DNA from: Candidatus Cloacimonadota bacterium
Lineage (GTDB): Bacteria > Cloacimonadota > Cloacimonadia > JGIOTU-2 > B8-G9
Length of the DNA: 7,509 nt
Direction of reading: 5' to 3'
Assembly (NCBI GenBank): GCA_003647765.1
Contig: QMNM01000059.1
Location: forward strand, 1 to 7,509
Every line of letters starts with the position of its first letter. The first letter of the stretch is position 1. Below are positions 1,461 to 7,144 of this stretch, one piece after another. The notes below the pieces were generated by a model. The model was given only the letters and a program-made list of their open reading frames with translations. It was not told the origin of the DNA and ran no database searches. Made by a program: the position numbers and the translations under genes.

Positions 1461-2672
1461 ATGAGAAAAGACATTTTTGAAGTTCATAAACCTAGTGCTT
1501 TAATTAGTGCTGAATACAAAACTCCAATCATACAGAGAGGTAGAATAAAAGGTTACGAGCATTACACATTGACACCAATTCAACATGATGCTATGAATTA
1601 TATGTGTTATATTGCTAGAGAACAAATTCATAAGAGGGTTAAAGTTGCTGAAACAATTGAAGCATTTTCTTCTGAGGATGAATTATTTGAATTTTTAGAG
1701 GTTCAACATTTTGAGATTAATCTTAAAGAGTTGTCAGATTTTACAGACAAGTATAAACACAAGCAAGATAAGAATGAGTTATCTGCAATATTGGATGCTC
1801 TTTGTGCCGTTCAAGTAAAAGTTGGAATATTCAAACAAGATGCGGCACTTGGTGAAATTCATGCAGTAAAAACAATGTCATTGCTACGAAATTATACACG
1901 AGTAACAAATAGCACTGTTGCTGATTTCCAATTAGAACCAGAAATACTATTAGGATGGATTCATAAGACTAAACCATTCGCAAAACTATATCTAAAGATT
2001 CAGACAAAATTGAAACTTACTTACTCCAAAATACTTTACGAGAACTGTAAAGATTATGAACGTTTGAAAAAGCCCCTCACAAAATCTTTTGAAGATTGGG
2101 TTAGAGTTCTTGGTATAGATAAGACAAAATCAAACACTGGAACTCCAAGTCAATTAAAAGCAGCTTATCTTAATAAAGCCATAAAAGAGATAAATGAACA
2201 CACTGATATTTTTATTGATGATATTAAGGGTAAAAAAACAGATGGTAAAACTATTATGACTGTTGAATTTCATACACAGAAATGCGATTTAATTGAAGAT
2301 GACGATGCAAATTTATCAATTGATGAACAGATAATGAAATCGAAGAAATTAACTATTGCACACGAGCGATTAAATAAGTCAAAACAGTATCAAACAATAA
2401 CAAATGAAAAGGCTTGGTTGAAGAAAACAGTTGAATCAATCACAGATGATTTTGTACATCAATTAGATATGATAGAAGAGGCAAAGTTAGTATTGGATAC
2501 ATTTGACATTAAACCTTTTATGGATAAGCTAACAAATAAATATAGTGATTTTATTGGTATGAAGGATTACAAGCTAATATACTTATTTGATGAAACAAAA
2601 GGGGATATAACTAAAAATGCCCTTGAAACTTATAAGATATTAGAATCTCTTGCAGATGAGATTATTAGTTAA
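1461..2672 (+). CDS. Replication initiator protein, Rep_3 / RepB family
   Basis: This 403-residue protein is the likely plasmid replication initiator, binding the iterons at 1259-1351 and recruiting the host replication machinery. Residues about 35-170 fit the first winged-helix domain, beginning with an LTPIQ-type helix. Residues about 175-270 fit the second winged-helix domain. Family hallmarks there are a KLYLKIQTKLKLTYSKILYE-like segment (175-194), an FEDWVRVLGI helix (210-219), a lysine-rich helix leading to AIKEINEHTDI (240-250), and a strand ending VEF (268-270). The remaining C-terminal part, about 275-403, is charged, mostly helical and longer than in minimal Rep proteins. AAAGGA stands six bases before the ATG. 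The stop overlaps the stop of the convergent gene in one TTAA. Rep level is probably set by the inverted iteron upstream. Confidence 0.88.
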   Translation: MRKDIFEVHKPSALISAEYKTPIIQRGRIKGYEHYTLTPIQHDAMNYMCYIAREQIHKRVKVAETIEAFSSEDELFEFLEVQHFEINLKELSDFTDKYKHKQDKNELSAILDALCAVQVKVGIFKQDAALGEIHAVKTMSLLRNYTRVTNSTVADFQLEPEILLGWIHKTKPFAKLYLKIQTKLKLTYSKILYENCKDYERLKKPLTKSFEDWVRVLGIDKTKSNTGTPSQLKAAYLNKAIKEINEHTDIFIDDIKGKKTDGKTIMTVEFHTQKCDLIEDDDANLSIDEQIMKSKKLTIAHERLNKSKQYQTITNEKAWLKKTVESITDDFVHQLDMIEEAKLVLDTFDIKPFMDKLTNKYSDFIGMKDYKLIYLFDETKGDITKNALETYKILESLADEIIS

Positions 2673-4173: not shown

Positions 4174-4416
4174 TTAGATTAATAACTCTGGGTGTTCTTT
4201 GAAATTTAATATCATGTTTAATCTACGAAGTAATAACATAAACATTTTGTCATCAAAAGAATTGCTTTTAGAGTTCATCAATAACTTGATAAGTGGGACA
4301 CAATCACTCTTGTCCATAGTATTAAAATCCCTTGGTCTATAAGTTCTATTCACCAAATCTATTTCTTCTTTATTAAGGGGTTTTAAGTCCAAGTCTAAAA
4401 TAGAAGTTAAACCCAT
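4174..4416 (-). CDS. small hypothetical protein (80 aa) ending HPELLI
   Basis: I do not recognise this protein. An acidic, leucine-rich N-terminus (MGLTSILDLDLKPLNKEE) leads to a polar middle (about 22-37), then a long helix (about 56-72) with a hydrophobic and arginine-rich face, and the tail HPELLI at 75-80. The ATG at 4416 lies inside the last codons of the upstream gene, giving a 10-base overlap. The site before it, AGAATT, is a poor ribosome site, so translation probably depends on coupling to that gene. The tail is not needed as a ribosome site here because the next gene starts 47 bases later with its own AAAGGA. This supports selection on the peptide itself. Confidence 0.68.
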   Translation of the reverse strand: MGLTSILDLDLKPLNKEEIDLVNRTYRPRDFNTMDKSDCVPLIKLLMNSKSNSFDDKMFMLLLRRLNMILNFKEHPELLI

Positions 4417-4664
4417 AATTCTGGCGATTCATTCATAAATTTCTTAACAATATATTTTGGAACTAAATAATATCCTTGGAAACTAATATTCCATTTACTC
4501 AATTGAATATGTGGCTCTTGCATCATTAATACTGATTTCTTATCTTCAAAATAAATCTTTCCACCATCAACTTTTTTAACCTTGAATATTGTGTCCTTTG
4601 TTACTGAATACAAATATTGACCCTTTCTAACATAACTTTCACTAATATCTAAGAAATTATTCAT
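4407..4664 (-). CDS. small hypothetical beta-rich protein (85 aa) ending SPELWV
   Basis: I do not recognise this protein. Residues about 16-65 alternate hydrophobic and polar residues (LYSVTKDTIFKVKKV, GKIYFEDKKSVLM, ISFQGYYLV) and look like a small beta barrel. A short helix (70-78) and the tail SPELWV (80-85) follow. An ATG at 4670 is also open, but I prefer the ATG at 4664. It forms an ATGA overlap with the upstream stop and sits eight bases after GGAG, whereas 4670 is only two bases from it. The gene overlaps its downstream neighbour by 10 bases. It is a middle gene of the tightly packed minus-strand operon. Confidence 0.7.
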   Translation of the reverse strand: MNNFLDISESYVRKGQYLYSVTKDTIFKVKKVDGGKIYFEDKKSVLMMQEPHIQLSKWNISFQGYYLVPKYIVKKFMNESPELWV

Positions 4665-4993
4665 ATCCATTTCTCCGGGTATTTTAATTTTGATTGTTCG
4701 ACTAAATCTTTGAAATAATCATCCATCTGCACATTAATTCTTGAAGCTTCATATACACTAAATTTAAGGAAAGCATCTTCATCTTCAAAAACATTACTAC
4801 TTATTGACCACTCATCTACACTTTCATAAATATCGTCCAGCGGACACATAAAATAAAATCGTTCTCCGTCATCCATTCTGTGTGTTGTATGTGTATGCAC
4901 CATTGGTATAATGGATTCAAAATAATCCTTATTAAAGGTCTGAAAGAAACCTCTCTGTAATAAATATATTTTATTTATTTCTAAATCATTCAT
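4661..4993 (-). CDS. small hypothetical acidic protein (110 aa) ending YPEKWI
   Basis: I do not recognise this protein. It is acidic and aromatic, with a histidine-rich segment HTHTTH at 33-38 followed by a strand FYFMCPLDD (46-54), an acidic stretch (52-73), and a C-terminal helix (about 89-103) leading to the tail YPEKWI at 105-110. The frame is open from a TTG at 4999, but the ATG at 4993 is preferred because it overlaps the upstream TGA as ATGA and has GAGG seven bases before it. The histidines could bind a metal, but no known motif is completed. It is co-translated with both neighbours. Confidence 0.7.
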   Translation of the reverse strand: MNDLEINKIYLLQRGFFQTFNKDYFESIIPMVHTHTTHRMDDGERFYFMCPLDDIYESVDEWSISSNVFEDEDAFLKFSVYEASRINVQMDDYFKDLVEQSKLKYPEKWI

Positions 4994-5250
4994 AACCAAG
5001 CCTCTGGGTACGTATCTATTGGCTTCAATAAATGTAATTCTGTAAGAACCCTATTCGCATTCTTATTCATACTATAAGCCGAGTGCTTTTCAGATACATT
5101 AGTTATTTTTAATACAAAGTTCCTAACAAACGGAAACCCAAATTTTAATACCATTTCTTCTGCAGATATTCGTGGATTGACCATACAATCAATGGACTTC
5201 ATTTTTTTTATCTCTATATCTATATCTTTTTCTGGTTTGTTTATGTTCAT
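4990..5250 (-). CDS. small hypothetical protein (86 aa) ending YPEAWL
   Basis: I do not recognise this protein. A charged, lysine-rich and acidic N-terminus (1-19) precedes a hydrophobic segment FGFPFVRNFVLKI (37-49) that is too polar to be a membrane helix. A helix (about 63-75), a short linker and the tail YPEAWL (81-86) follow. AGGA lies eight bases before the ATG at 5250. It begins the overlapped run of four genes, because its TGA overlaps the next ATG. Its last codons CCAGAGGCTT are identical in DNA to those at the end of the 5300-5605 gene, although only this copy overlaps a following start codon. Confidence 0.7.
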   Translation of the reverse strand: MNINKPEKDIDIEIKKMKSIDCMVNPRISAEEMVLKFGFPFVRNFVLKITNVSEKHSAYSMNKNANRVLTELHLLKPIDTYPEAWL

Positions 5251-5299
5251 ATTTTAATCCTAATTTTATTGCTATATATTACCATAATAAATCTTAATA

Positions 5300-5605
5300 T
5301 TAAATTAAAGCCTCTGGATATAGATATTCCATTTCAGCCATAAATTCTTTTGTGAAGTATAATTTGATACTTCCACCGGTAGTTTGGAATGTTATTCCGT
5401 CAACAACCATAACTTGAGGGTAATATTGTTTTATGGCAGAGTTTATTTCACTCTTTAATTTATGGATGGTCTGTTCTGATTGGATTTCAAAGGTATATTT
5501 CTCATATATCTCTTGAACTAAAGGGAAAAGTGAAACAGCATTGTATTTATTTTGGTTCTCTAATTGAACCATTATTTGAGGTATATTCATATGTATATTA
5601 TACAT
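5300..5605 (-). CDS. small hypothetical protein (101 aa) ending YPEALI
   Basis: I do not recognise this protein. It has a polar helical first half (about 9-60), then strands around residues 64-84 (VMVVDGITFQTTGGSIKLYF), a helix (86-94) and the tail YPEALI (96-101). The start is uncertain: ATGs at 5605 and 5590 both lack a Shine-Dalgarno site. A TATAAT at 5602-5597 would start RNA close to 5590, so the shorter form could be read from a leaderless message. The longer frame is listed as the conservative choice. It diverges from the kinase gene at 5644 with 38 bases between. An antitoxin role for that kinase is possible by position only. Confidence 0.66.
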   Translation of the reverse strand: MYNIHMNIPQIMVQLENQNKYNAVSLFPLVQEIYEKYTFEIQSEQTIHKLKSEINSAIKQYYPQVMVVDGITFQTTGGSIKLYFTKEFMAEMEYLYPEALI

Positions 5606-5638
5606 TAAAGGAAGATTTAAGTATAACTTCTATATAAT
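5597..5638. promoter_or_regulatory. divergent candidate promoters with very short or no leaders
   Basis: TATAAT occurs on the minus strand at 5602-5597 and on the plus strand at 5633-5638, as an inverted pair TATTATA/TATAATA. The plus box ends five bases before the ATG at 5644. The minus box ends six bases before the ATG at 5590. Neither gene has a good Shine-Dalgarno site, so both messages may begin at or beside the start codon. A second minus-strand box, TATACT at 5625-5620, would give a short leader to the ATG at 5605. Confidence 0.42.
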
Positions 5639-5643
5639 AAGAA

Positions 5644-6219
5644 ATGAAAAAAATACAAATAACAGATATTAAAAATATCACGGATAAACCGCTCTATATT
5701 CTTATAGCAGGTGCAATTGGTTCTGGCAAAAGTACAGTAGTATCAAAATACTTATCAGATTTTAATATAGTAGATCCTGATATTTTCACTATGCAATTGG
5801 GTCGTGGAGTATATGACGATAAACATGTAGCAACCTCTATGGCAATGACAAAGGCTACGGTCTTATCATTATTAAAAGGTGATGAATCTTTTATACAACA
5901 AGGAACATCAGCCAATCTACAATCTTCATTGAATAAAATGATGAATGCCAAGAAGAATGGGTTTACTACTATATTATTATATGTAGATACCCCACTTGAA
6001 AAATCAATTGAAAATGTAACCAATAGAACTGATAGAAATAATATTCCATCGTATAAAGTTGAAAGAACACATAACGGTGCGTTATTAACTTATCAAGTTT
6101 TAACAGATACAGTTGAAGATATGTCGAGAGTTATTCCATCTTTACAAAGCACACTTTTAACTATGGAAGCGGCACAGGCTCTTACTGACTATACTATCCA
6201 CTATAAAAATTCTTATTAA
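5644..6219 (+). CDS. zeta-toxin-like / phage-type P-loop kinase
   Basis: This 191-residue protein is a P-loop nucleotide kinase resembling the zeta toxin and related AAA_33-type kinases. Zeta toxins phosphorylate UDP-activated sugars, while relatives phosphorylate nucleic acids or small molecules. Walker A reads GAIGSGKS at 23-30. A VDPD motif (43-46), a GTSANL segment (87-92) where zeta proteins have their substrate-side motif, a LLYVDTP strand (111-117), and arginines R128, R131 and R141 in the lid region all fit the family. It is shorter than typical zeta toxins of about 270 residues. No epsilon antitoxin is recognisable. The divergent 5300-5605 product is the only close neighbour upstream. 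No ribosome site is strong. The fold is confident, but toxin activity is not shown. Confidence 0.8.
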   Translation: MKKIQITDIKNITDKPLYILIAGAIGSGKSTVVSKYLSDFNIVDPDIFTMQLGRGVYDDKHVATSMAMTKATVLSLLKGDESFIQQGTSANLQSSLNKMMNAKKNGFTTILLYVDTPLEKSIENVTNRTDRNNIPSYKVERTHNGALLTYQVLTDTVEDMSRVIPSLQSTLLTMEAAQALTDYTIHYKNSY

Positions 6220-6226
6220 TTTTTTG

Positions 6227-6286
6227 TATAATGATTTCCAAGGTATTTGAGATAACTTCAAAACTAACCTAAAGATAACTTCAAAA
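6227..6286 (+). promoter_or_regulatory. promoter and tandem 14-base repeats before the polymerase-like gene
   Basis: TATAAT at 6227-6232 follows a T tract and would give a leader of about 57 bases. Inside that leader AGATAACTTCAAAA occurs twice, at 6250-6263 and 6273-6286, exactly 23 bases apart or about two helical turns. The second copy runs into the AAGGA ribosome site at about 6285-6289. A protein or RNA binding the repeats could therefore control transcription or translation of the gene at 6296. Confidence 0.5.
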
Positions 6287-6295
6287 GGAAACATT

Positions 6296-7144
6296 ATGCA
6301 AGATAATATTGCTACAGTCTTTAGTCAATACATTAAAGACAACGATTTAACACAAGATAACTACAACGCGAAATTACATGAAATTTCTTACATCACATTC
6401 TTCAATGATATAACATCTAATATTTTAGGTGCTCCATTATATACACATGATAAATGCCCCACTACAACAAACTCAATTGTTTATATTGCTGATTCAGCAA
6501 AAGAAATGTTTATTTCAGGAGTAGATATTCTGACTATTAATTCATTATATCATGGTGCTATAACACGACTTGAGTATAATTACCCAAATTACCCAGAGTT
6601 TCTTAATAGTATGTTCTCTTTGCGAAAGAAGATGAAGAAAAAAGCTTTTAATGAAGATATTTACCATGAAGCAAACCTTACTCAGACTCTCATTAAAATA
6701 TATTTGAATTTAGTTTATGGAATGATTGATAATGCACAGTCAATACTTACTTCTTCACACGATACACCACGATCATTTATTGTGGAAAGTTCAAGAAAAG
6801 CAATATTAAGTGTTACAGCATTCCTATTAAATAAGGGTATTCCAGTGTATTACATTGACACTGATGAAATTCACTGTGGAAGTATTTCATTAGAGAATTA
6901 TGCTGAACTTCAAGACTACTATAATGATACTTCAAAAACACATATAGATACTAAAATTTCTACTATGAATAAAGATTCTGATGGTTTTACGAATGGATAC
7001 TACAAGGCTAAAAAACAATTTGTTCTTGGTGCAAAAACTAAGATGCAAGGTTTGAATGAAGTAAATGACACTAATGTGAAGTTTGATAACAAGAAATACT
7101 TTGGTGTCACTTTTCCACATCAATTTCCAGAATATGCGATATAA
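6296..7144 (+). CDS. mini family B DNA polymerase-like palm protein, degenerate motif A
   Basis: This 282-residue protein matches the palm and fingers core of family B DNA polymerases. Motif B is K134-xxx-N138-xx-Y141-G142 (consensus KxxxNSxYG). Motif C is Y186-I-D188-T-D190-E. A KKxY-like motif, AKKQFVLGAKTKMQGL, lies at 238-253. The finger segment SLRKKMKKKA (108-117) precedes motif B as expected. Motif A appears as NSLYHGAI (82-89), but the position of the metal-binding Asp, three before Ser83, is Thr80; the nearest Asp is D77. There is no room for the 3'-5' exonuclease domain, and full enzymes are at least twice as long. AAGGA six bases before the ATG and its own promoter region indicate a real gene rather than a 3' remnant. 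It ends FPEYAI, like the minus-strand small proteins. It may be inactive or need a partner chain. Confidence 0.78.
   Translation: MQDNIATVFSQYIKDNDLTQDNYNAKLHEISYITFFNDITSNILGAPLYTHDKCPTTTNSIVYIADSAKEMFISGVDILTINSLYHGAITRLEYNYPNYPEFLNSMFSLRKKMKKKAFNEDIYHEANLTQTLIKIYLNLVYGMIDNAQSILTSSHDTPRSFIVESSRKAILSVTAFLLNKGIPVYYIDTDEIHCGSISLENYAELQDYYNDTSKTHIDTKISTMNKDSDGFTNGYYKAKKQFVLGAKTKMQGLNEVNDTNVKFDNKKYFGVTFPHQFPEYAI

Follow-up and report, generated by a model that had tools for sequence, protein, structure and literature searches.

A conserved C-terminal Pro-Glu tail on otherwise dissimilar small proteins of a T4-like jumbo phage lineage, a putative docking motif

Introduction

Short terminal peptides with a defined function are known from several bacterial and phage proteins. 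The tip of bacterial single-stranded DNA-binding protein (SSB) consists of an acidic stretch plus Ile-Pro-Phe, hydrophobic C-termini are typical Clp signals, and the capsid targeting sequence of phage T4 is N-terminal and late-expressed. In phage T4, interchangeable C-terminal epitopes bring the polymerase, gp33 and gp55 to the sliding clamp (PMC2988020). Here we describe a C-terminal tail with the pattern [YFHN]-P-E-x-[LWFMY]-[IVL]-COOH (the PE tail), represented by six proteins of a 7,509-b contig (C85; "the window" denotes this whole contig, the stretch of DNA that was analysed) and by many further proteins of a T4-like jumbo phage and its relative. We read the tail as a lineage-specific C-terminal short linear motif that acts as a putative docking epitope for one partner on early phage proteins, and we give this reading a probability of roughly 0.62.

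The tail resembles each of these systems in part. Like the gp45 clamp-binding epitopes of gp43, gp33 and gp55, it is a short hydrophobic/acidic C-terminal segment on otherwise unrelated proteins of a T4-like phage. However, its sequence differs, three proteins carry the epitope in T4 whereas dozens of small proteins carry the tail here, and the gp55-like protein of the relative is tailless. As in the SSB tip, acidic residues are followed by a hydrophobic peptide with a free carboxylate, but SSB is one hub whose tip is bound by many partners, whereas here many proteins bear the tail. With ssrA-type and other Clp C-degrons the tail shares a hydrophobic C-terminus in a phage that encodes Clp components; unlike them it is genome-encoded and stands right after a predicted helix. 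Finally, the T4 capsid targeting sequence is likewise one terminal signal on diverse small proteins, although the tail is C-terminal and its genes have early-type promoter motifs.

Results

An earlier note on the window described a common terminal hexapeptide in six proteins, and all six tails were found at their stops (minus strand: 5300, 4990, 4661, 4407 and 4174; plus strand: 7144). Five belong to an array of co-directional small genes (80-112 aa) at 4174..5605 on the minus strand: YPEALI (5303..5320) in the 101-aa open reading frame (ORF) 5300-5605 with its stop at 5300-5302, YPEAWL (4993..5010) in the 86-aa ORF 4990-5250, YPEKWI (4664..4681) in ORF 4661-4999 with a likely ATG start at 4993, SPELWV (4410..4427) in the 87-aa ORF 4407-4670, and HPELLI (4177..4194) in the 80-aa ORF 4174-4416. 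The sixth, FPEYAI (7124..7141, plus strand), ends the 282-aa polymerase-B-like ORF 6296-7144. As the note had held, the window proteins are otherwise unlike, with no mutual BLASTP match at E<=1e-3 among the six.

The window belongs to a bin of 1.97 Mb and 360 contigs, a mixed metagenome-assembled genome (MAG) holding fragments of a T4-like jumbo phage. It comprises chromosome contigs and numerous AT-rich ones, on which small ORFs are packed in one direction, and no small-subunit ribosomal RNA was found in it. About 80 of the 360 contigs were examined, piece by piece, with mechanical ORF calls; the bin is not complete, and its phage fragments may come from more than one phage. When the MAG was scanned with a codon pattern for PExx-hydrophobic-stop, 104 sites matched, compared with 46 for the reversed control. 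The matches were clustered on small contigs, which yielded 49 tailed ORFs in the first pass and more afterwards. Over 20 tail-bearing contigs (83 kb), a PExx[ILV] end is present in 51 of 171 ORFs, where the frequency at internal positions would give 0.10. Selection of the contigs by their tails inflates this figure, and the register of the tail and an independent genome provide less biased evidence.

That genome is IMGVR_UViG_3300026521_000003 (G003; 289,880 b, GC fraction 0.27). A scan of IMG/VR with one exact tail form gave 22 contigs, with 12 tails in 12.8 kb of G003; a second tail-pattern scan gave two contigs, and many tails were seen in G003 only. There, 27 of 337 ORFs have the PExx[ILV] end against 0.19 expected (binomial P 6e-49), which puts the tailed share of ORFs at ~8%, compared with ~30% on the tail-bearing contigs of the bin. 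The register is fixed: the PE dipeptide occurs at offset -5/-4 51 times on the 20 contigs and 28 times in G003, and at most once at each neighbouring offset. The sequence logo shows Y/F/H/N at -6, P at -5, E at -4, L/W/F at -2 and I/V/L at -1. Positions -8/-7 hold E/K/D, preceded by residues with a helical periodicity. Few relaxed variants were seen (YPQNFI, NAEKFI, and RYPQYCI in a close relative of contig C320), and nearly all tailed proteins have 50-220 aa. The G003 tails lie at 179-196, 219-240 and 286 kb, most of them in two clusters.

Contigs of the bin are often collinear with G003 (C164 with 217.9-222.2 kb, C304 with 228-230 kb), which allows orthologues to be compared. In nine tailed orthologue pairs the bodies are identical at 276 of 876 positions (31.5%; range 25-40%), and Pro, Glu and the final I/L/V are retained in all nine, with synonymous differences at the P or E codons in five. 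Among them are the window protein 4174-4416 (HPELLI), whose orthologue L077:15830-16063 ends NPELLI, and 4990-5250 (YPEAWL), whose orthologue L079:12333-12584 ends YPELWI. Neighbouring tailless genes are tailless in both phages, for example a PsiE-like pair with 59% identity (family name by eye). Retention in nine of nine pairs despite such diverged bodies indicates that selection acts on the peptide. The tail is thus a real, selected peptide, and the loss from homologues that the earlier note had named as a test was not seen.

The tail does not extend to T4-like jumbo phages in general, an idea we rejected since it ends 0 of 390 ORFs in the 200 kb of GAP32 that were sampled and 0 of 76 in 41 kb from a Lak phage. 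IMG/VR searches by polymerase, helicase, CoaD-like protein and terminase returned G003 and fragments as the only close relatives, such searches found no close relatives among GTDB contigs, and tblastn with a selection of the tailed proteins gave no relatives among isolate phages. As a separate observation, large proteins of the chromosome contigs (L011, L023, L027, L038, L042) end in KKMxLLR/K-like sequences, a different signal that recalls type IX secretion tails.

If the tail were the last conserved piece of a fold common to an old, strongly diverged paralogue family, no external partner would be needed. When 79 tailed proteins were compared without their last eight residues, BLASTP at E<=1e-3 linked pairs only, and profile comparison of the tailed families gave no body match. 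Detectable paralogues are the L013 trio with L021_509 and L079_8665, the L014/L079 quartet, and L003_6253 with L020_2873. The description of the proteins as otherwise different therefore holds for most of the tailed set and fails for a few paralogues (L013 trio, L014/L079 quartet). Two AlphaFold models, built from shallow alignments of two sequences each, differ in fold, one being all-helical and the other helix plus sheet (mean predicted local distance difference test score, pLDDT, 77 and 64). Both end in a helix, a short break and one helical turn over the tail. A Foldseek search with models of tailed proteins gave no fold match and, with the profile comparisons also empty, a simple common fold was rejected. 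The detectable groups, and the helical pattern ahead of the tail in many of the proteins, are what a paralogue family would leave, but most bodies lack similarity, the predicted folds differ, a polymerase-B-like protein also ends in the tail, and a terminal Pro-Glu in fixed register exceeds the usual demand of a common fold. Common descent as the whole explanation is therefore unlikely.

The main functional rival of docking is a C-degron, by which the tail would mark early proteins for removal by phage ClpA/ClpP, with ClpS alongside, and so time the end of the early phase. G003 encodes ClpS (PF02617, 6e-27; L075:19506-19814), a ClpA-like unfoldase with two AAA modules and, by eye, a VGF loop where ClpP is likely to dock (L155:40-2343), and a ClpP-like peptidase (PF00574; L153:1501-2328), a 66% identical relative of which (L154:1474-2334) is on a contig of the window's bin. 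The role of head protease need not fall to ClpP, because a gp21-type prohead protease is encoded separately in G003. The closest ClpA match, "Acinetobacter phage MD-2021a" (CAKLQF020000008, L157-L159), was dropped because the record is annotated as a bacterial chromosome, so that matches to it are not phage matches. Degradation by this set is nevertheless improbable. The tail is predicted to follow directly on a helix rather than to form a long flexible extension, GAP32 has both ClpA and ClpS yet no tail among the 390 ORFs sampled, and there is no direct link between tail and Clp. In addition, ClpP was found in the window's bin but ClpA was not, an empty search that carries little weight.

The remaining functional alternative is that the tail directs proteins to the virion or procapsid, as a C-terminal equivalent of the capsid targeting sequence of T4 internal proteins. 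G003 is T4-like, with gp23 capsid, S77 (gp21-type) prohead protease, baseplate wedge, sheath stabiliser, topoisomerase II, SbcC, ribonucleotide reductase, gp44 clamp loader and a gp55-like factor, and its capsid is ~32-34% identical to those of jumbo myoviruses (Vibrio phage 2.275.O, Erwinia phages). The terminase nuclease half of C320 is 61% identical to that of G003 and is interrupted by an intein; at L022:1809-3038, L077:16327-17640 and L043:2861-4174 the C-terminal part of an intein precedes the nuclease half, and L043 has a homing endonuclease nearby. Promoter-like motifs differ by region: the structural region has TATAAATA, of the T4 late type, the small-gene arrays have TGTATAAT, and TGTAAAAT stands close to replication genes. 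In the arrays at 217-290 kb, upstream matches to TGTATAAT number nine and those to TATAAATA six; the corresponding numbers for the structural region are 0 and 17 (Fisher 1.8e-4). These promoter-like motifs in AT-rich DNA suggest that the tailed genes are early. Virion targeting could draw on the gp21-type protease and on the precedent of T4, in which various small proteins bear a single short terminal signal. However, that signal stands at the N-terminus of late proteins whereas the tail is at the extreme C-terminus, late motifs are fewer in the tailed arrays than in the structural region, and no tail occurs among G003 genes at 40-170 kb, structural ones included. This alternative, which the earlier note had listed among the possible destinations, is thus very improbable, with the early-type promoter motifs speaking against it.

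The tail is also absent from gp23, the gp21-type protease, terminase (TerL), the clamp loader and the gp55-like factor. The last (phrog_234, 1e-18) ends DIAHRD. Polymerase genes are in pieces; a polymerase-related C-terminal piece (L074:3161-3811) ends SHKIKE, and the window's polymerase-B-like protein ends FPEYAI. A tag for a replication hub, at least in a simple form, is disfavoured by a tailless gp55-like factor and a tailless polymerase piece, and a clamp epitope was rejected because the gp55-like protein lacks the tail.

Codon use reveals a second function at some tails. As a correction, only two of the six window tails are at an ATGA stop/start overlap, namely YPEAWL, where CCAGAGG doubles as the Shine-Dalgarno site of the next gene, and YPEKWI, where CCGGAG does so. 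YPEALI is ~50 nt from the next start and so is not a ribosome site for the next gene, and HPELLI, also outside an overlap, has a similar ~50 nt to the next start. For SPELWV the next gene starts within the tail codons, its ATG standing 10 nt short of the end of the SPELWV stop, and FPEYAI is 3 nt ahead of a start, a spacing unfit for a Shine-Dalgarno site. Throughout the set, an ATGA overlap is lacking at 30 of 51 bin tails and at 23 of 27 in G003, and these tails mostly use GAA, so that the enrichment is present outside these junctions, where the earlier note had advised looking for it. Of the 21 bin tails at overlaps, 20 encode Glu by GAG, compared with 8 of 30 elsewhere (Fisher 6.6e-7); across all codons of these contigs GAG has a share of 0.25. 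The overlap tails form GGAG or AGAGG-like sites with a GAG to ATG spacing of 8 nt. This contrast indicates a ribosome-site function layered on a constant peptide: the tail codons get added Shine-Dalgarno use where the next gene begins at an ATGA overlap. Despite the GAG bias and the 8-nt spacing, the tail is almost certainly not the mere translation of a Shine-Dalgarno sequence (CCRGAG) at a fixed distance from an ATGA start, since most tails, including 30 of 51 in the bin, are off the overlaps and mostly have GAA, a ribosome site is possible in other frames as Arg-Arg or Gly-Gly, which are not seen, and the orthologue peptide is constant while codons and junction type vary.

G003 has a second tail, [FY]LPxE[VI]K[DS]IF[IV]F, on 42 mostly consecutive genes at 237-284 kb (L078-L082, G003 236768-283565). 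With the last 25 residues removed, the bodies show no BLASTP links at E<=1e-3. Like the PE tail, it is a common C-terminus on a gene array, next door to the first, whose bodies lack detectable similarity; it differs in sequence and is ~12-20 residues long. It is not enriched in the window's bin.

The window also encodes a DNA methylase, a cytosine methylase start (by eye), an AAA/zeta-toxin-like kinase, small ORFs and a Rep3-type initiator-like protein (1461..2672, plus strand). The initiator-like protein is tailless and has a distant G003 homologue (25% identity), which is part of what ties the contig to the phage. Upstream of its gene are tandem, iteron-like CTTCACATTCTACTCTTACC repeats (1258-1350) and a 42-b element (1430-1471) that recurs at 86% on bin contig C129 (G000:C129:5701-5742). 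The polymerase-B-like ORF 6296-7144 (plus strand) has a weak DNA_pol_B match, below cut-off (E 0.0032), with KxxxNxxYG and YxDTD motifs; by eye, its motif-A-like stretch is TINSLYHG, without the usual Asp. Another polymerase-B piece of the phage is on contig C324. Isolated polymerase-B-like motifs (DVASMYPS; MMMNSTYG) occur in the tailed small ORFs L079:19355-19813, L079:17666-18175 and L014:3425-3769, which are distant from the phage's other polymerase piece (G003 4449-5252 / L110). A contig that is collinear with 144-146 kb of G003 has a DnaK gene (L010:2384-4270) next to a tailed ORF, and G003 has a DnaJ (L069:7158-8159).

Discussion

Docking of the tail on one partner is consistent with its fixed register, its conservation in orthologues, its independence of ATGA junctions and the unlike bodies that bear it. 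The suggestion of a common terminal tag in the earlier note is sustained to this extent, but the partner identities proposed there are not. The T4 precedent of interchangeable C-terminal docking epitopes supplies a working model. In the predicted structures, Pro-Glu after the last helix of the body would start one extra helical turn. Acidic residues lie just ahead of this turn, whose two hydrophobic side chains may fit, together with the terminal carboxylate, into a groove of a single putative partner common to the tailed proteins. Unrelated early proteins would thereby be collected on, or passed to, one machine.

Several points weigh against this reading. No partner protein emerged for the tail. 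PDZ_2 (PF13180), the one PDZ model applied, has no match in G003 while each of the 14 control genomes has one, and the PF13180 matches lie within host bin contigs only; a phage PDZ receptor was rejected to the extent that this one model allows. The tail is within the predicted fold in both models (pLDDT ~73-80), and a tail placed there at moderate confidence may pack on its own body; the models behind this geometry themselves depend on two-sequence alignments. The few clear paralogues mean that part of the tailed set may share one ancestor. Finally, it is promoter-like motifs in AT-rich DNA that suggest early expression.

That neighbouring arrays bear two different tails adds to the appeal of a sorting role. 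Tentatively, the phage may possess an address-label system with at least two C-terminal tags, each on an array of unrelated early proteins and each directed to a different putative phage-made receptor, although we regard this extension as doubtful. If it is true, a protease, a chaperone or a takeover complex, for example, could serve as receptor. In the literature, as far as it was covered, no description was found of early phage proteins being sorted into tagged sets.

Jumbo phages carry hundreds of small early genes that lack assigned function, and a tag on a fixed subset of them is a handle. It lets genes of this class be recognised without homology, and one bait peptide could reveal the machine served by all the tailed proteins. 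The second tag in the same genome suggests that early proteins may be sorted into sets.

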